Shown: positions 7,973 through 20,666 of the stretch, one piece after another
Numbering within the stretch: position 1 is the first letter of the stretch
How the letters are laid out: each line of letters starts with the position of its first letter
The notes under the pieces: generated by a model
Told to the model about the DNA's origin: nothing
Database searches by the model: none
The model's input: only the letters and a program-made list of their open reading frames with translations
Virus record (IMG/VR): IMGVR_UViG_3300006735_000336
Span: 1-20,666 of that record
Origin: a virus
Reading direction: 5' to 3' (one strand)
DNA: 20,666 nt
Position numbers and translations under genes: made by a program

Positions 7973-8857
7973 TCAGATATTGAACACCTTGTCAGCGACT
8001 ATTTTTCCAAAACAAGGATCGGCAAGCATCGCTAAAATTGAAAACCCAAAAGTTGCTTTGACAAGATATTCTGTCGCAGCCAATACCAATGCTCTTTCAT
8101 TATTGATCAGTTCTTCCACTGCGGTTTTTGCCACCATGACATTATCATATGCATCAACCAGATCTTGCAAATTTTGGGTCGAGGCGTTTAGAAAACTAAT
8201 ATTTCCATTAGAGTCTCTAGGTAGAAGATTAAGTGCGGTTCTAAAATCACCCTCAAGTGCAGCGTTGATACCATTTGTAAGATCTGTACCCGGACCCAAG
8301 ACACTACCAAAAAATTGGCTATAATTGTCAAGCAATTCATCAGTGTTTGACAATGAATTTACAGTATTATTGAAACCAGCAGCCAAAGATTGGATGGCAG
8401 AGATGCCGGGCATATCAGAGACACCACCGTTTTGGTCAAACCCATCTTTTGTTAAAGAAACACCACTAAGAATGTCACTCTGCTCTTGCATGAAGTTTGC
8501 CGTATTAGTCACACGATCTGATAGACTTGTGATAAATTGTGCTGCTGTTGGATTCTCACCACCAAATAAAGATAAATCCACACCGGGGATCGGAGTTCCG
8601 AGTTGAGTTCCATCCAGTGTCATAAAAACTGATCCAACTGCATTATCAACTTCTGTGATGATTTTTCCAACCTCAGCACCAACAGCATTCAAAGCATTTT
8701 GCACTGGATTAATAAAAAGTTCTCCAGAGATTGCTTTATTGATAATATCAAGAGCCTCGTCTGAAATAGGAAGTGCCGGAATATCACAACCTGAAAGATC
8801 TATAAAATCCTGATTGATGAGTGGAGCAATATTGATACCCTCTGGAAAAGCACTCAT
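7973..8857 (-). CDS. Conserved hypothetical virion protein between PAAR tip and gp25
   Basis: 294 aa from ATG at 8857, which overlaps the PAAR stop as ATGA; a longer reading from 8884 (beginning MCYFGCGG) lies wholly inside the PAAR gene and is less likely. I do not recognise a named family. The protein is largely helical and hydrophilic, with NAVGAEVGKIITEVDNAVG in the first third, a Gly/Asn-rich middle (DGFDQNGGVSDMPG) and a hydrophobic C-terminal segment (ATFGFSILAMLADPCFGKIV). I have an impression of similar 'LAD.CFG' ends in proteins next to PAAR/gp25 in marine T4-like phages, but cannot confirm it. Its position inside the hub/needle cluster, tightly coupled to the PAAR gene, argues for a baseplate or baseplate-assembly role. 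Function is not assigned. Confidence 0.65.
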   Translation of the reverse strand: MSAFPEGINIAPLINQDFIDLSGCDIPALPISDEALDIINKAISGELFINPVQNALNAVGAEVGKIITEVDNAVGSVFMTLDGTQLGTPIPGVDLSLFGGENPTAAQFITSLSDRVTNTANFMQEQSDILSGVSLTKDGFDQNGGVSDMPGISAIQSLAAGFNNTVNSLSNTDELLDNYSQFFGSVLGPGTDLTNGINAALEGDFRTALNLLPRDSNGNISFLNASTQNLQDLVDAYDNVMVAKTAVEELINNERALVLAATEYLVKATFGFSILAMLADPCFGKIVADKVFNI

Positions 8858-9138
8858 GGTCCCACCACAACCGAAGTAGCACATGTGGTGTTATCCACCT
8901 TATCGAGTAAATTATTAATATCTGTACCTCTTGTCATATTTAATCCTCCAACTAAGACTGATTGTGATCCCGTGATTATTTCACTAATAACTTTTTCGGG
9001 TGGATATGGTGAAACCATTGAACTAAGTCTTGAGGCTGGCTTGCCCTCAATCAAAACTGAGAGTTCACCAGTAAATATTTTACCAATGCCCTCCTTGCCG
9101 ATTACATTAGTATCAACCGTAGCAGCAAATAAAGCCAT
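8854..9138 (-). CDS. PAAR-like spike tip protein (gp5.4-like)
   Basis: 94 aa from ATG at 9138, which shares its A with the preceding TGA (TGATG); GGTGGA lies about 6 bases upstream. A second in-frame ATG at 9153 would add five residues but sits inside the previous gene. T4 gp5.4 is 97 aa. The PAAR-type pattern is two copies of a 'tGs.sVli.Gkpa.R' motif: TGELSVLIEGKPASR at about 23-37 and TGSQSVLVGGLNMTR at about 56-70, then TTCATSVVVGP at the end. PAAR proteins form the sharp, metal-bound cone that caps the gp5 beta-helix needle. The literal Pro-Ala-Ala-Arg motif and the usual histidine-rich metal site are not evident, so it is a divergent member. Its place just after gp5 and one other gene supports the call. 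Confidence 0.7.
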   Translation of the reverse strand: MALFAATVDTNVIGKEGIGKIFTGELSVLIEGKPASRLSSMVSPYPPEKVISEIITGSQSVLVGGLNMTRGTDINNLLDKVDNTTCATSVVVGP

Positions 9139-9785
9139 CAGATTTCCACCCATGCGGATGTCACTCCGCTTGTGCTTCCGTCAGAAAGATAAACAAACAA
9201 TCTTCCCGAGCCAGTGTTCAACCAATATTGTCCGATGTTTGCAACCGGAGGCACGAAGTTGCCAACAAATTTTGCGTCTGTTTGATTTGATCCACGGATA
9301 CCACTTAAAATATTATCAGTGGTTATCGCTGTTCCTGAATTGATTGAGTTTTCAAAAGTAATGCCGCTTGGCTCGATGATTGGTCGAGTTGTTTTGAAAT
9401 ACTTTACAAAATCATTTTCGATATTATTTGCTTCGTCCAAAACACTTTGATCTGTTAGTGGTCTGGTGGACTCAAGATTAAATTTGAAGGGTCTTCTTTC
9501 TTTGTTACTTTCATAAAAGGAGCGAAGATTTTCTATTTCATCATTTGTTAAGTCAGGATGAACTTTGTTGATTTCTGCGTTTGTCATCGGTCTATTGATA
9601 CCATGACCACCTTGTGTGATCATTTCGATAAAGTGATATCTTGCGGTTTTATTTGGAAAGGATGTGTAAACAGAATATTCAGGCTCATCTTTGAATTCAA
9701 AAAAATCAAAGCCTTTCGCTAAAATTATTTTGATGGAGCGTTCACCGTTCGCTGTAAGATCAACCACATTTTGAAAAGTAGGCAT
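9138..9785 (-). CDS. Hypothetical structural protein next to gp5 spike
   Basis: 215 aa; not recognised as a named family. The N-terminal two thirds are charged and mixed alpha/beta (GERSIKIILAKGFDFFEFKD, then ITQGGHGINRPMTNAEINKV). The C-terminal about 40 residues (PPVANIGQYWLNTGSGRLFV, YLSDG...AWVEI) look like the small 'yW.nt.tg.lfvy..dg....W' beta module often appended to phage fibre and structural proteins. ATG at 9785 is preceded by AAGGAG whose first bases are the gp5 stop (TAAGGAG). A possible late promoter (AATAAATA) lies 68 bases upstream, inside the gp5 end. It is coupled to gp5 and the PAAR gene, so a hub or needle-assembly role is reasonable, but this rests on position only. Confidence 0.6.
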   Translation of the reverse strand: MPTFQNVVDLTANGERSIKIILAKGFDFFEFKDEPEYSVYTSFPNKTARYHFIEMITQGGHGINRPMTNAEINKVHPDLTNDEIENLRSFYESNKERRPFKFNLESTRPLTDQSVLDEANNIENDFVKYFKTTRPIIEPSGITFENSINSGTAITTDNILSGIRGSNQTDAKFVGNFVPPVANIGQYWLNTGSGRLFVYLSDGSTSGVTSAWVEI

Positions 9786-15938: not shown

Positions 15939-16376
15939 ATGGCTTACCGTGGTAAATACAAACCCAAGAATCCAAACAAATATGTTGGTGATCCAACAAA
16001 AATAAATTACCGATCCTTATGGGAAAGAAAGTGTATGCTCACGTTTGATGATAATCCAAACATAATCAAATGGGCATCAGAAGAGATCGCCATACCGTAT
16101 TTATCACCCGTTGATAGAAAGCGTCACAGATATTATCCAGACTTTATGGTTGAACTTAAGAACAAAGAAGGCAAAGTTGAAACAATCATGATTGAAGTAA
16201 AACCAAAAAAACAAACGGAGCCACCAAAGCCTAGAAAAAGAAAATCAGTGACTTATCTCAACGAGGCAAAAACATACGCCATCAATCAGGCAAAGTGGGC
16301 TGCTGCTCAAGCCCTATGTGATCGTAAAGGCTGGACATTCAGAATCATGACGGAGAAAGAAATCTATGGCAAGTAA
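15939..16376 (+). CDS. 4: Head completion protein gp4
   Basis: 145 aa (T4 gp4 is 150). It matches T4 gp4 along its length: MAYRGKYKPKNPNKYVGDPT, KINYRSLWERK, NPNIIKWASEEIAIPYLSP, then KRHRYYPDFMVEL and IMIEVKPKKQTEPPKP, and at the end AINQAKWAAAQALCDRKGWT with FRIMTE. The E...YYPDF...iEvKPK pattern is that of an endonuclease-like (TnsA/PD-(D/E)XK) fold: candidate catalytic residues are Glu in SLWERK, Asp in YYPDF and the Glu/Lys of IEVKPK. In T4, gp4 (also called gp50/65 in older work) completes DNA-filled heads so tails can join. No ribosome-binding site is visible before the ATG. It is the first gene of the rightward operon and overlaps the next gene by 11 bases. Confidence 0.93.
   Translation: MAYRGKYKPKNPNKYVGDPTKINYRSLWERKCMLTFDDNPNIIKWASEEIAIPYLSPVDRKRHRYYPDFMVELKNKEGKVETIMIEVKPKKQTEPPKPRKRKSVTYLNEAKTYAINQAKWAAAQALCDRKGWTFRIMTEKEIYGK
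16098..16105 (-). promoter_or_regulatory. Possible late promoter for leftward operon (GATAAATA)
   Basis: Read leftward, the sequence is GATAAATA, seven of eight bases of the T4 late promoter TATAAATA and a fit to the NATAAATA form described for marine T4-like phages. It lies inside gp4, on the opposite strand, about 180 bases upstream of the gp48-like ATG, so it would give an RNA antisense to the 5' end of gp4. Such a string is expected several times by chance in 20 kb of AT-rich DNA, so support is only moderate. Confidence 0.3.
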
Positions 16377-17593: not shown

Positions 17594-18298
17594 ATGCAAT
17601 TACCAAAAATTAAGACTCCTGAATATGTGATTGAATTACCAATCTCAAAACAAAAAGTAACTTATAGACCCTTCTTAGTCAAAGAAGAAAAAATGTTCAT
17701 GATGCTCAAAGAGGCAAAGGATCAGAACCTTCTCGTAAATAACTTAAAAAAGATTGTTGAGCAATGTATTATTGATGGTCCCAAGATTGATGATATTAGT
17801 TACAACGATTTTGAAATTCTATTTTTGAGCATGAGAGTTAGATCGATGGGTGAGTCTGTTGATCTTTCGCTTAAATGTAAATCTTGTGGAAAGCAATCGC
17901 CCGTGTCAATTAATCTTGATGATGTTTGCGAAACCACTAAAAAGTCAGATATCGGTGAGGCAAGGATTATGCTGAACGAAGAGGTTGGTGTTACTTGCAC
18001 ACCGATCAAGATGTCAAGAATGGGACAGGCTGCCTCGCTCACAGAGAAAGACAATGTAAACTCAGTGGCATTTTTTATTGATAAAGTTTTTACGAAAGAT
18101 CAAATTTATACTTTTTCTGAGATGCCATTCTCCGAGCAAAAGGCTTTTGTTGATTCTTTGAGTATGAAGCACATCACTGAAATCACACAGTATGCTGAAA
18201 AATTACCAACTGCCTCTTGTGAGGTAAACTATACCTGTGCAAGTTGTGGTGCGAAGAATAATCAACTTGTCAAAGGACTGGAGAATTTTTTTATGTAA
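17594..18298 (+). CDS. 26: Baseplate hub assembly protein gp26-like, likely with -1 frameshift extension
   Basis: 234 aa (T4 gp26 is 208), of the T4_baseplate family. Conserved opening: LPKIKTPEYVIELPISKQKV, then TYRPFLVKEEKMFMMLKEAK, and DFEILFLSMRVRSMGESVDL near 72-91. Two CxxC pairs, CKSC at 95-98 and CASC at 215-218, could form a zinc ribbon. In T4, gp26 helps build the gp27-gp5-gp29 hub. AAAGG lies 7 bases before the ATG. The last codons are AAT TTT TTT ATG TAA: seven T's in slippery phase, followed by a 9-bp stem, predict a -1 shift that would replace the last residue with 62 residues of the next frame (295 aa total, ending at 18480). The gp26 call is good; the shift is predicted from sequence only. 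Confidence 0.87.
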   Translation: MQLPKIKTPEYVIELPISKQKVTYRPFLVKEEKMFMMLKEAKDQNLLVNNLKKIVEQCIIDGPKIDDISYNDFEILFLSMRVRSMGESVDLSLKCKSCGKQSPVSINLDDVCETTKKSDIGEARIMLNEEVGVTCTPIKMSRMGQAASLTEKDNVNSVAFFIDKVFTKDQIYTFSEMPFSEQKAFVDSLSMKHITEITQYAEKLPTASCEVNYTCASCGAKNNQLVKGLENFFM

Positions 18299-19985: not shown

Positions 19986-20666
19986 TTAGTCCTCACTGGC
20001 GAGCCGAGAGAAGTAGTCAAGAGCGGACTCTTCGCTGTCGGGTTCCACTGGTTGTGGAACCGATTCACTAACGGTTTCTGTCGTAACCGTTTCATCCACA
20101 GAGGTATTCTCTGCTGTATTGGTCGGCTGCGAACCACCGAGGACGGTTTCCAGACGAGTCTTCAACTCATCATAGGATTTGTAGTTTGTCGGATCAACAA
20201 ACTCGCTGAGAGGATATTGGGTAGCCCAAACTTCCTTCAACTTTTCTTCATCTCCCTCATACAGAGCAGAGACAGAATCAAACTCCGACTTGTCGTAGTT
20301 AGGATAACCAGCGACCTTGCGTTGACGCAATCGGAAGTTTGCACCTTGCCAGAAGTCGAATGGGATGATTGGATCTTCATCCGCAAACTCTGGCTTCATG
20401 GCATCCACCAACTTCTGATGAATCTTCATTCCATAACGGAACAAGAAAACCTTACCTTCATTTTCAGGTGCAGCAGGATCAGAAATCACAAGGATGTTGG
20501 AGACAAAGTTCTTCTTACGCTTTGTCTTTTGTGAAACCATATCCTTGTTGGCTTGGATGCCGCTGTTCCAAAGACGAGAGTTGTATTCGGAAACAGGGTC
20601 TTTCTCACCAAAGGTGGTGCGAGAGTTCTCGATGAACCAACCGCCCGGACCTTGGAAAGCGTGAGA
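19986..20666 (-). CDS. 32: Single-stranded DNA binding protein gp32 (N-terminus cut by window edge)
   Basis: 226 codons are present; the frame is open to the window edge, so the true start lies outside and the Met at 20540 is internal. Strong matches to the gp32 core: NILVISDPAAPENEGKVFLF, RYGMKIHQKLVDAM, PFDFWQGANFRLRQRKVAGY and PNYDKSEFDS. The C-terminus is acidic (VEPDSEESALDYFSRLASED), as in T4 gp32, where it recruits replication partners. gp32 coats single-stranded DNA in replication and recombination. The zinc module is altered: where T4 has Cys-77 and C-x2-C at 87/90, the sequence here is GGWFIENSRTTFGEKDPVSE, with Ser, Asp and Ser in those places. C-ending and AAG codons are more frequent than in the tail genes, consistent with high expression. 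Confidence 0.93.
   Translation of the reverse strand, partial: SHAFQGPGGWFIENSRTTFGEKDPVSEYNSRLWNSGIQANKDMVSQKTKRKKNFVSNILVISDPAAPENEGKVFLFRYGMKIHQKLVDAMKPEFADEDPIIPFDFWQGANFRLRQRKVAGYPNYDKSEFDSVSALYEGDEEKLKEVWATQYPLSEFVDPTNYKSYDELKTRLETVLGGSQPTNTAENTSVDETVTTETVSESVPQPVEPDSEESALDYFSRLASED

Follow-up and report, generated by a model that had tools for sequence, protein, structure and literature searches.

The DNA analysed here (the window) comprises 20,666 bases, the full length of a virus record whose end falls inside a gene for the single-stranded DNA-binding protein gp32. The minus-strand frame at this end encodes 226 amino acids, reads SHAFQGPGGWFIENSRTTFGEKDPVSEYNSRLWNSG... and is open at the window end (Table 1). 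It is confirmed as a T4-family gp32: it matches the Pfam gp32 family PF08804 with an E value of 3.5e-33 (115.8 bits, against a cut-off of 26.8) and phrog_224 with an E value of 2.7e-80, and phmmer aligned it with four distinct T4/RB69 gp32 chains in the PDB (E 1.1e-31 to 3.9e-30). A helical stretch is found at the N-terminus of relatives, and the corresponding cooperativity domain of the window protein would lie outside the window. Of the records found, the three nearest to the window (about 99% identity for two of them and about 91% for the third) likewise stop within gp32; the contigs L002/L003 (78% identical to the window) and L004 (76%) extend to their own N-termini.

Table 1 Features of the window (positions count from its first base)
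Feature	Position	Strand	Remark
gp32, N-terminally cut	19986..20666	(-)	5' end lost at the window and record end
gp32 C-terminal tail	19986..20150	(-)	In record G002, 34-40% divergent over ~20001-20100
Former zinc-knuckle segment GWFIENSRTTFGEKDPVSE	20586..20642	(-)	Placed by alignment
His at T4 His64	20661..20663	(-)	His in 152 of the 154 Cys-less cores
Ser (TCT) at T4 Cys77	20622..20624	(-)	Placed by alignment
Asp (GAC) at the third-ligand place (T4 Cys87)	20598..20600	(-)	Placed by alignment; immediately before a conserved Pro
Ser (TCC) at T4 Cys90	20589..20591	(-)	Placed by alignment
PF12322 baseplate protein	17594..18298	(+)	Zinc-ribbon-like four-Cys set
TnsA-like endonuclease N-terminal domain protein	15939..16376	(+)	PF08722
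PAAR-motif protein	8854..9153	(-)	PF05488

The ligands of the T4 gp32 zinc are given as His64, Cys77, Cys87 and Cys90 in PMC3012046. At these places, in both phmmer and MAFFT alignments, the window protein carries His, Ser, Asp and Ser, so that the ligand set of a T4-type zinc metalloprotein is absent. Compared with T4, it has two residues fewer in the loop that joins the second and third ligand places, and both programs placed the window Asp under T4 Asp85 and left Cys87 opposite a gap. We nevertheless assign this Asp to the place of the third ligand, because zinc-type relatives with an equally short loop (C-x7-C-x2-C) have their third Cys in that column, before the conserved Pro. Since these zinc-type relatives share the short loop, the shortening itself is not the loss of the site. 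A preliminary description of this DNA, made from its sequence, had read Ser, Asp and Ser at the three Cys places within an otherwise retained flanking core, and both readings were borne out; it did not mention that His64 is retained as well. The window residues are not a sequencing error, as L002/L003 and L004 carry an identical His-Ser-Asp-Ser set.

Relatives of the window gp32 were gathered in an earlier round of 105 loci, which was then extended to 349 loci plus the window. The 349 loci consist of 27 named records and the products of scans seeded by five queries, with the best 80 of at least 600 rows taken in four of the scans. Merging identical cores gave 275 distinct cores, with loci L351-L353 standing outside the tally; no core is a substring of another, and six groups among them have an identical central stretch. 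Because this sampling was seeded by chosen queries, the proportions of the site states given here are not population frequencies. The full His-Cys-Cys-Cys set (HCCC, in the order of the T4 ligands) was found in 106 cores, 154 had no ligand Cys, and 15 had a single one. By state, HSDS accounted for 129 cores, HSDG for 15, HSDA for 5 and HSDR for 2, with HSDY, FHDQ and YSDQ found once each. The mixed cores were Ser-Cys-Ser (HSCS, n = 8), Cys-Asp-Ser (HCDS, n = 4) and single instances of Cys-Asp-Met (HCDM), Gly-Cys-Arg (HGCR) and Ser-Cys-Gln (YSCQ); the ligand set does not always change as a block. The Cys-less cores were nearly uniform: Asp occupied the third place in all 154, Ser the place of Cys77 in 153 (the exception has His) and His that of His64 in 152. 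Position 90 was Ser in 129 of them, Gly in 15, Ala in 5, Arg in 2, Gln in 2 and Tyr in 1. A change from Cys to Asp takes two base changes, and for this reason the constant Asp is not easily ascribed to drift. The codon class of the serines at the Cys77 and Cys90 places (TCN or AGY) was considered as a sign of independent losses and rejected, other Ser columns being equally mixed.

No substitute ligand was detected. Among the 154 Cys-less cores, no column held Cys in more than 15%. Two columns held His in 28% and 45% of these cores; they do so in HCCC cores also (22% and 20%), and the window has Ala and Tyr there. Before His64, any Cys occurred in 4 and any His in 3 of 56 Cys-less rows of a full-length alignment, in which the window's N-terminus is absent. 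Replacement ligands outside the window, which the preliminary description had raised as the finding that would speak against a zinc-less protein, were thus not found as conserved residues among the relatives in the core and full-length alignments, N-terminus included. AlphaFold models of the zinc-less L003 and the zinc-type L109, both computed from one mixed set of 85 sequences, had mean pLDDT values of 86.2 and 85.9, and ten-residue blocks around the knuckle reached 94-97 and 93-98, respectively. It should be noted that such models may look right regardless of metal. The L003 core superposed on 2a1k with Z 25.2 and an rmsd of 2.0 over 211 residues, and on 1gpc with Z 24.6; for L109 the Z scores were 24.8 and 24.1, with helix boundaries that agree with those of L003. 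As models, the zinc-less and zinc-type proteins fit T4/RB69 gp32 equally well, and the gp32 OB core fold was predicted through L003 as a relative 78% identical to the window. The loop that the preliminary description had singled out for modelling was thereby obtained in L003, within a T4 core fold and at a pLDDT of about 94-97. Its claim that the protein must fold without the zinc site gains support from the 154 of 275 cores that are Cys-less, the lack of a conserved substitute and the confident L003 model, which together suggest that H-S-D-S gp32 does fold in this way.

We consider it probable that the window encodes a T4-family OB core whose structural zinc site has given way to a knuckle free of metal and built of protein alone. 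In zinc-type gp32, His64 and the three Cys anchor the loop, together with a short helix, to the barrel. Helix starts favour Asp and Pro, and in the zinc-less form the Asp at the Cys87 place, lying before Pro at a helix start, could serve as a helix cap and perhaps pair with His64, which is still present. The predicted secondary structure is consistent with this role, which we otherwise infer from sequence: the L003 model has a helix at 92-101 right after Asp91, and the L109 model one at 91-100 right after the corresponding Cys. With Cys77 replaced by Ser and Cys90 by Ser, Gly or Ala, Ser77 and its neighbours would complete the packing. Metal is presumably absent from H-S-D-S gp32, and DNA binding is presumably kept. 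For the T4 protein, PMC10862658 reports that zinc supports the DNA-binding conformation and that its removal weakens DNA binding; the zinc finger is described as buried in PMC12893549.

Alternatively, the His-Ser-Asp-Ser set might still bind a divalent metal, either another metal or zinc weakly, and the site would be altered, not lost. Both His64 and Asp are residues that commonly bind metals, and they occur together in 152 of the 154 Cys-less cores; but Ser is a poor metal ligand, position 90 also admits Gly, Ala, Arg, Tyr and Gln, and residues at position 92 are bulkier, which makes this explanation very unlikely. The residues around the ligands were compared in a cyanophage-type set of 95 HCCC and 147 H-S-D-S/G/A rows. 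These states are what defines the two groups, and the set excludes L090, L094 and the 11 HCCC rows of T4 or KVP40 type. After the ligands themselves, the most state-linked columns corresponded to T4 positions 73 (F/L to Y/F), 92 (H/A to L/Y/M) and 75 (D/E to E), all of which sit at the knuckle; in the window, 73 and 75 fall inside the former knuckle segment and 92 just beyond it. In zinc-less gp32, position 73 mostly becomes Tyr, and position 92 tends towards a bulkier Leu, Tyr or Met. The window follows the zinc-less trend at 92 (Tyr) and 75 (Glu), but not at 73, where it has Phe, as do 59 of the 95 zinc-type rows; the neighbour change at 73 and 92 is a tendency only.

Zinc-type and zinc-less gp32 interleave on trees built with the motif columns removed. 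The first tree held 116 rows; the second, of 111 rows, dropped eight long-branch rows (L089, L090, L092, L094, L097, L099, L100 and L105). On both, the zinc label changed at least 13 times. Inner branches were mostly weak (20 of 108 starred on the 111-row tree), and starred branches alone force five changes of the zinc label on the 116-row tree (HCCC) and three on the 111-row tree; for the no-Cys label, strongly supported branches of the 111-row tree force six. S-PM2 (HCCC) and S-RSM4 (HSDG) are sisters with a support of 99 on the 116-row tree. The results that follow come from a single tree, many of whose branches are weak. Constraining the 72 site-lacking rows into one clade lowered the log-likelihood by 262 units and was rejected (p-AU 3e-105); the site-lacking rows are not one clade, contrary to the earlier suggestion that the loss is a clade trait. 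A two-state model rooted on the T4-type rows gave a zinc-type root (P 0.98-1.00) with means of 9.8 losses and 4.6 gains, and a loss-only model was about 8 log units worse than one with gain and loss. Related phages have kept or lost the site repeatedly, mostly with the same replacements, in sea, lake and land alike.

Relaxed constraint would offer one account of such a pattern: phages that regulate gene 32 by other means could lose the zinc domain, which in T4 is said, in 1991 work by Shamoo cited in PMC535899, to be needed for translational self-repression. The scattered, lineage-specific losses would agree with this; however, varied replacements would then be expected, and the Asp and Ser77 of the Cys-less cores are almost invariant. 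We regard it as unlikely. A reading that we put forward tentatively, at somewhat less than even odds, is that T4-like phages hold two interchangeable versions of the knuckle, one zinc-bound and one metal-free, with crossings in both directions, the metal-free version being a repeatedly reached solution with an Asp cap beside His64. As part of the main explanation, too, the gp32 family has passed from one form to the other on many occasions, whether by repeated mutation or by exchange of gp32 alleles.

It is doubtful, though less so than relaxed constraint, that the patchiness is chiefly due to phages exchanging gp32 alleles or segments and that genuine losses were few. The locus itself is variable. 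Record G002 is 99.2% identical to the window over 20 kb (about 99% up to gp32), and in the gp32 tail its 50-base blocks drop to an identity of 0.60-0.66 before recovering to 0.88 and 1.0. Record G003 is 88-96% identical to the window in the five neighbouring genes upstream, compared with 0.96-0.99 in the gp32 core; core conservation alone may be a partial explanation of this contrast, and two other 200-base stretches of G003, outside gp32, also reach 0.975. In window coordinates, G001 ends at 20558, G002 at 20191 and G003 at 20567, and the window's own record at 20666, which, in favour of exchange, suggests that allele variation breaks assembly within gp32. The tree is that of gp32 itself, and therefore whole-gene transfer would make no switches within it. 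Exchange of a short tract at the knuckle was tried as an explanation with synonymous differences in 64 pairs of rows and rejected: no pairing of a zinc row with a zinc-less row gave evidence of such a tract, and the only pair that survived correction was a same-state control, L187/L075, whose synonymous differences cluster at the knuckle (p 5e-5). Moreover, for each of 10 rows checked, the closest row judged by the motif and the closest judged by the remainder of the protein both had that row's state. In the pair L187/L075, both Ser-Cys-Ser, codons for the same residue differ at 7 of 24 places in the knuckle and at 5 of 189 elsewhere, a pattern that looks like a short exchanged tract.

The loss was also proposed to be an adaptation to zinc-poor ocean water and to be shared by marine T4-like phages. 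In its general form, this zinc-sparing explanation holds that gp32 is very abundant during infection and that phages of hosts in zinc-poor, open-ocean water drop its zinc. PMC9337993 reports 24-1,138 zeptomoles of Zn per cell for field Synechococcus. By our arithmetic, this is about 14,500-685,000 atoms per cell. T4 produces on the order of 10,000 gp32 per cell, an output that would strain the low end of this range. In addition, two Pelagibacter phages, the Prochlorococcus phage P-SSM2 and a Methylophilales phage all lack the site, and its absence is indeed common in marine phages; the cyanophages S-PM2 (sea water, English Channel), Syn1 and S-CAM1 (the last from the Southern California coast) nevertheless keep HCCC, as does Vibrio phage K566 (seawater and oysters), so that this part of the proposal held only in part. 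An adaptation to the ocean is not supported: phages of pond, reservoir, river, soil and poultry origin lack the site too, as does a Salmonella phage. Those found without the full site are Caulobacter phage Cr30 (pond), Stenotrophomonas phage YB07, Klebsiella phage phi1_175010 (river), Pseudomonas phage pf16, Salmonella phage SenALZ1, Campylobacter phages F207 and CP220, Rhizobium phage I1_9 and the reservoir cyanophage S-SRM01.

The habitat counts cover 30 hand-chosen named records. Of these, 16 were without the complete site; by our own habitat assignment, they make up 7 of the 12 marine records and 9 of the remaining 18. DSL-LC03, S-PM2, Syn1, S-CAM1 and EniLVp02 were included for matching a Cys motif, and K361 and F207, with one Cys each, were scored as lacking the site. 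P-SSM2, HTVC008M, S-RSM4 and Syn1 were taken as marine by host or background knowledge, and EniLVp02, from retailed shrimp, was scored as marine; YB07, pf16, SenALZ1, JS98, PX29, ECML-359 and 60AhydR15PP were scored as other without a written source. The window's own PF12322 baseplate protein also speaks against zinc sparing, with its zinc-ribbon-like four-Cys set, which is absent in S-PM2, a phage that retains the gp32 zinc ligands. Zinc sparing is conceivable, yet the habitat pattern and this four-Cys protein do not favour it as a general cause, and we hold it to be quite unlikely, marginally less so than an altered metal site. A finer effect of coastal versus open-ocean water on the site state is possible.

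Compared with T4/RB69 gp32 (1gpc, 2a1k; PF08804), the window protein shares the family, the predicted OB core fold, His64, the flanking core and a C-terminal tail of low model confidence; it differs in having Ser-Asp-Ser in place of Cys77/87/90, a loop two residues shorter and a Lys aligned with T4 Tyr84. The gp32 proteins of P-SSM2, HTVC008M, Mosig and Melnitz (Kyanoviridae) are H-S-D-S like the window at 50-54% identity and, as far as compared, differ from it by sequence distance only. Those of S-PM2, Syn1, S-CAM1 and DSL-LC03 (also Kyanoviridae) share the family and the short loop but have the full His-Cys-Cys-Cys set, C-x7-C-x2-C. In the Ackermannviridae, the more distant SenALZ1 and phi1_175010 proteins have H-S-D like the window and differ by Arg at 90. 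Zinc-less gp32 sequences such as that of P-SSM2 are already public, and gp32 is a known protein, of which this is a variant form. No description of a zinc-less gp32 was found in the titles and abstract openings of the top literature matches outside subscription papers; PMC2984593 names gp32 once and zinc never. Zinc should accordingly not be assumed in every annotated gp32. This large natural set of zinc-less proteins, whose substitutions are nearly the same and whose close relatives include zinc-type forms, allows a direct test of how a structural metal site can be replaced. If the two versions are indeed interchangeable, gp32 would be a natural experiment in which structural zinc is replaced by protein contacts.

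Three other genes of the window were recorded. The PF12322 baseplate protein, which we take to be gp26-like, carries its four Cys in two CxxCG motifs (KCKSCGK and YTCASCGAK); the homologous proteins in P-SSM2, S-RSM4, S-PM2, Melnitz, Mosig and HTVC008M lack this set, and phmmer found no match to the protein in the PDB. A 145-amino-acid protein with a TnsA-like endonuclease N-terminal domain (E 3.7e-25) is encoded amid structural genes, and a PAAR-motif protein was identified with an E value of 1.2e-8.
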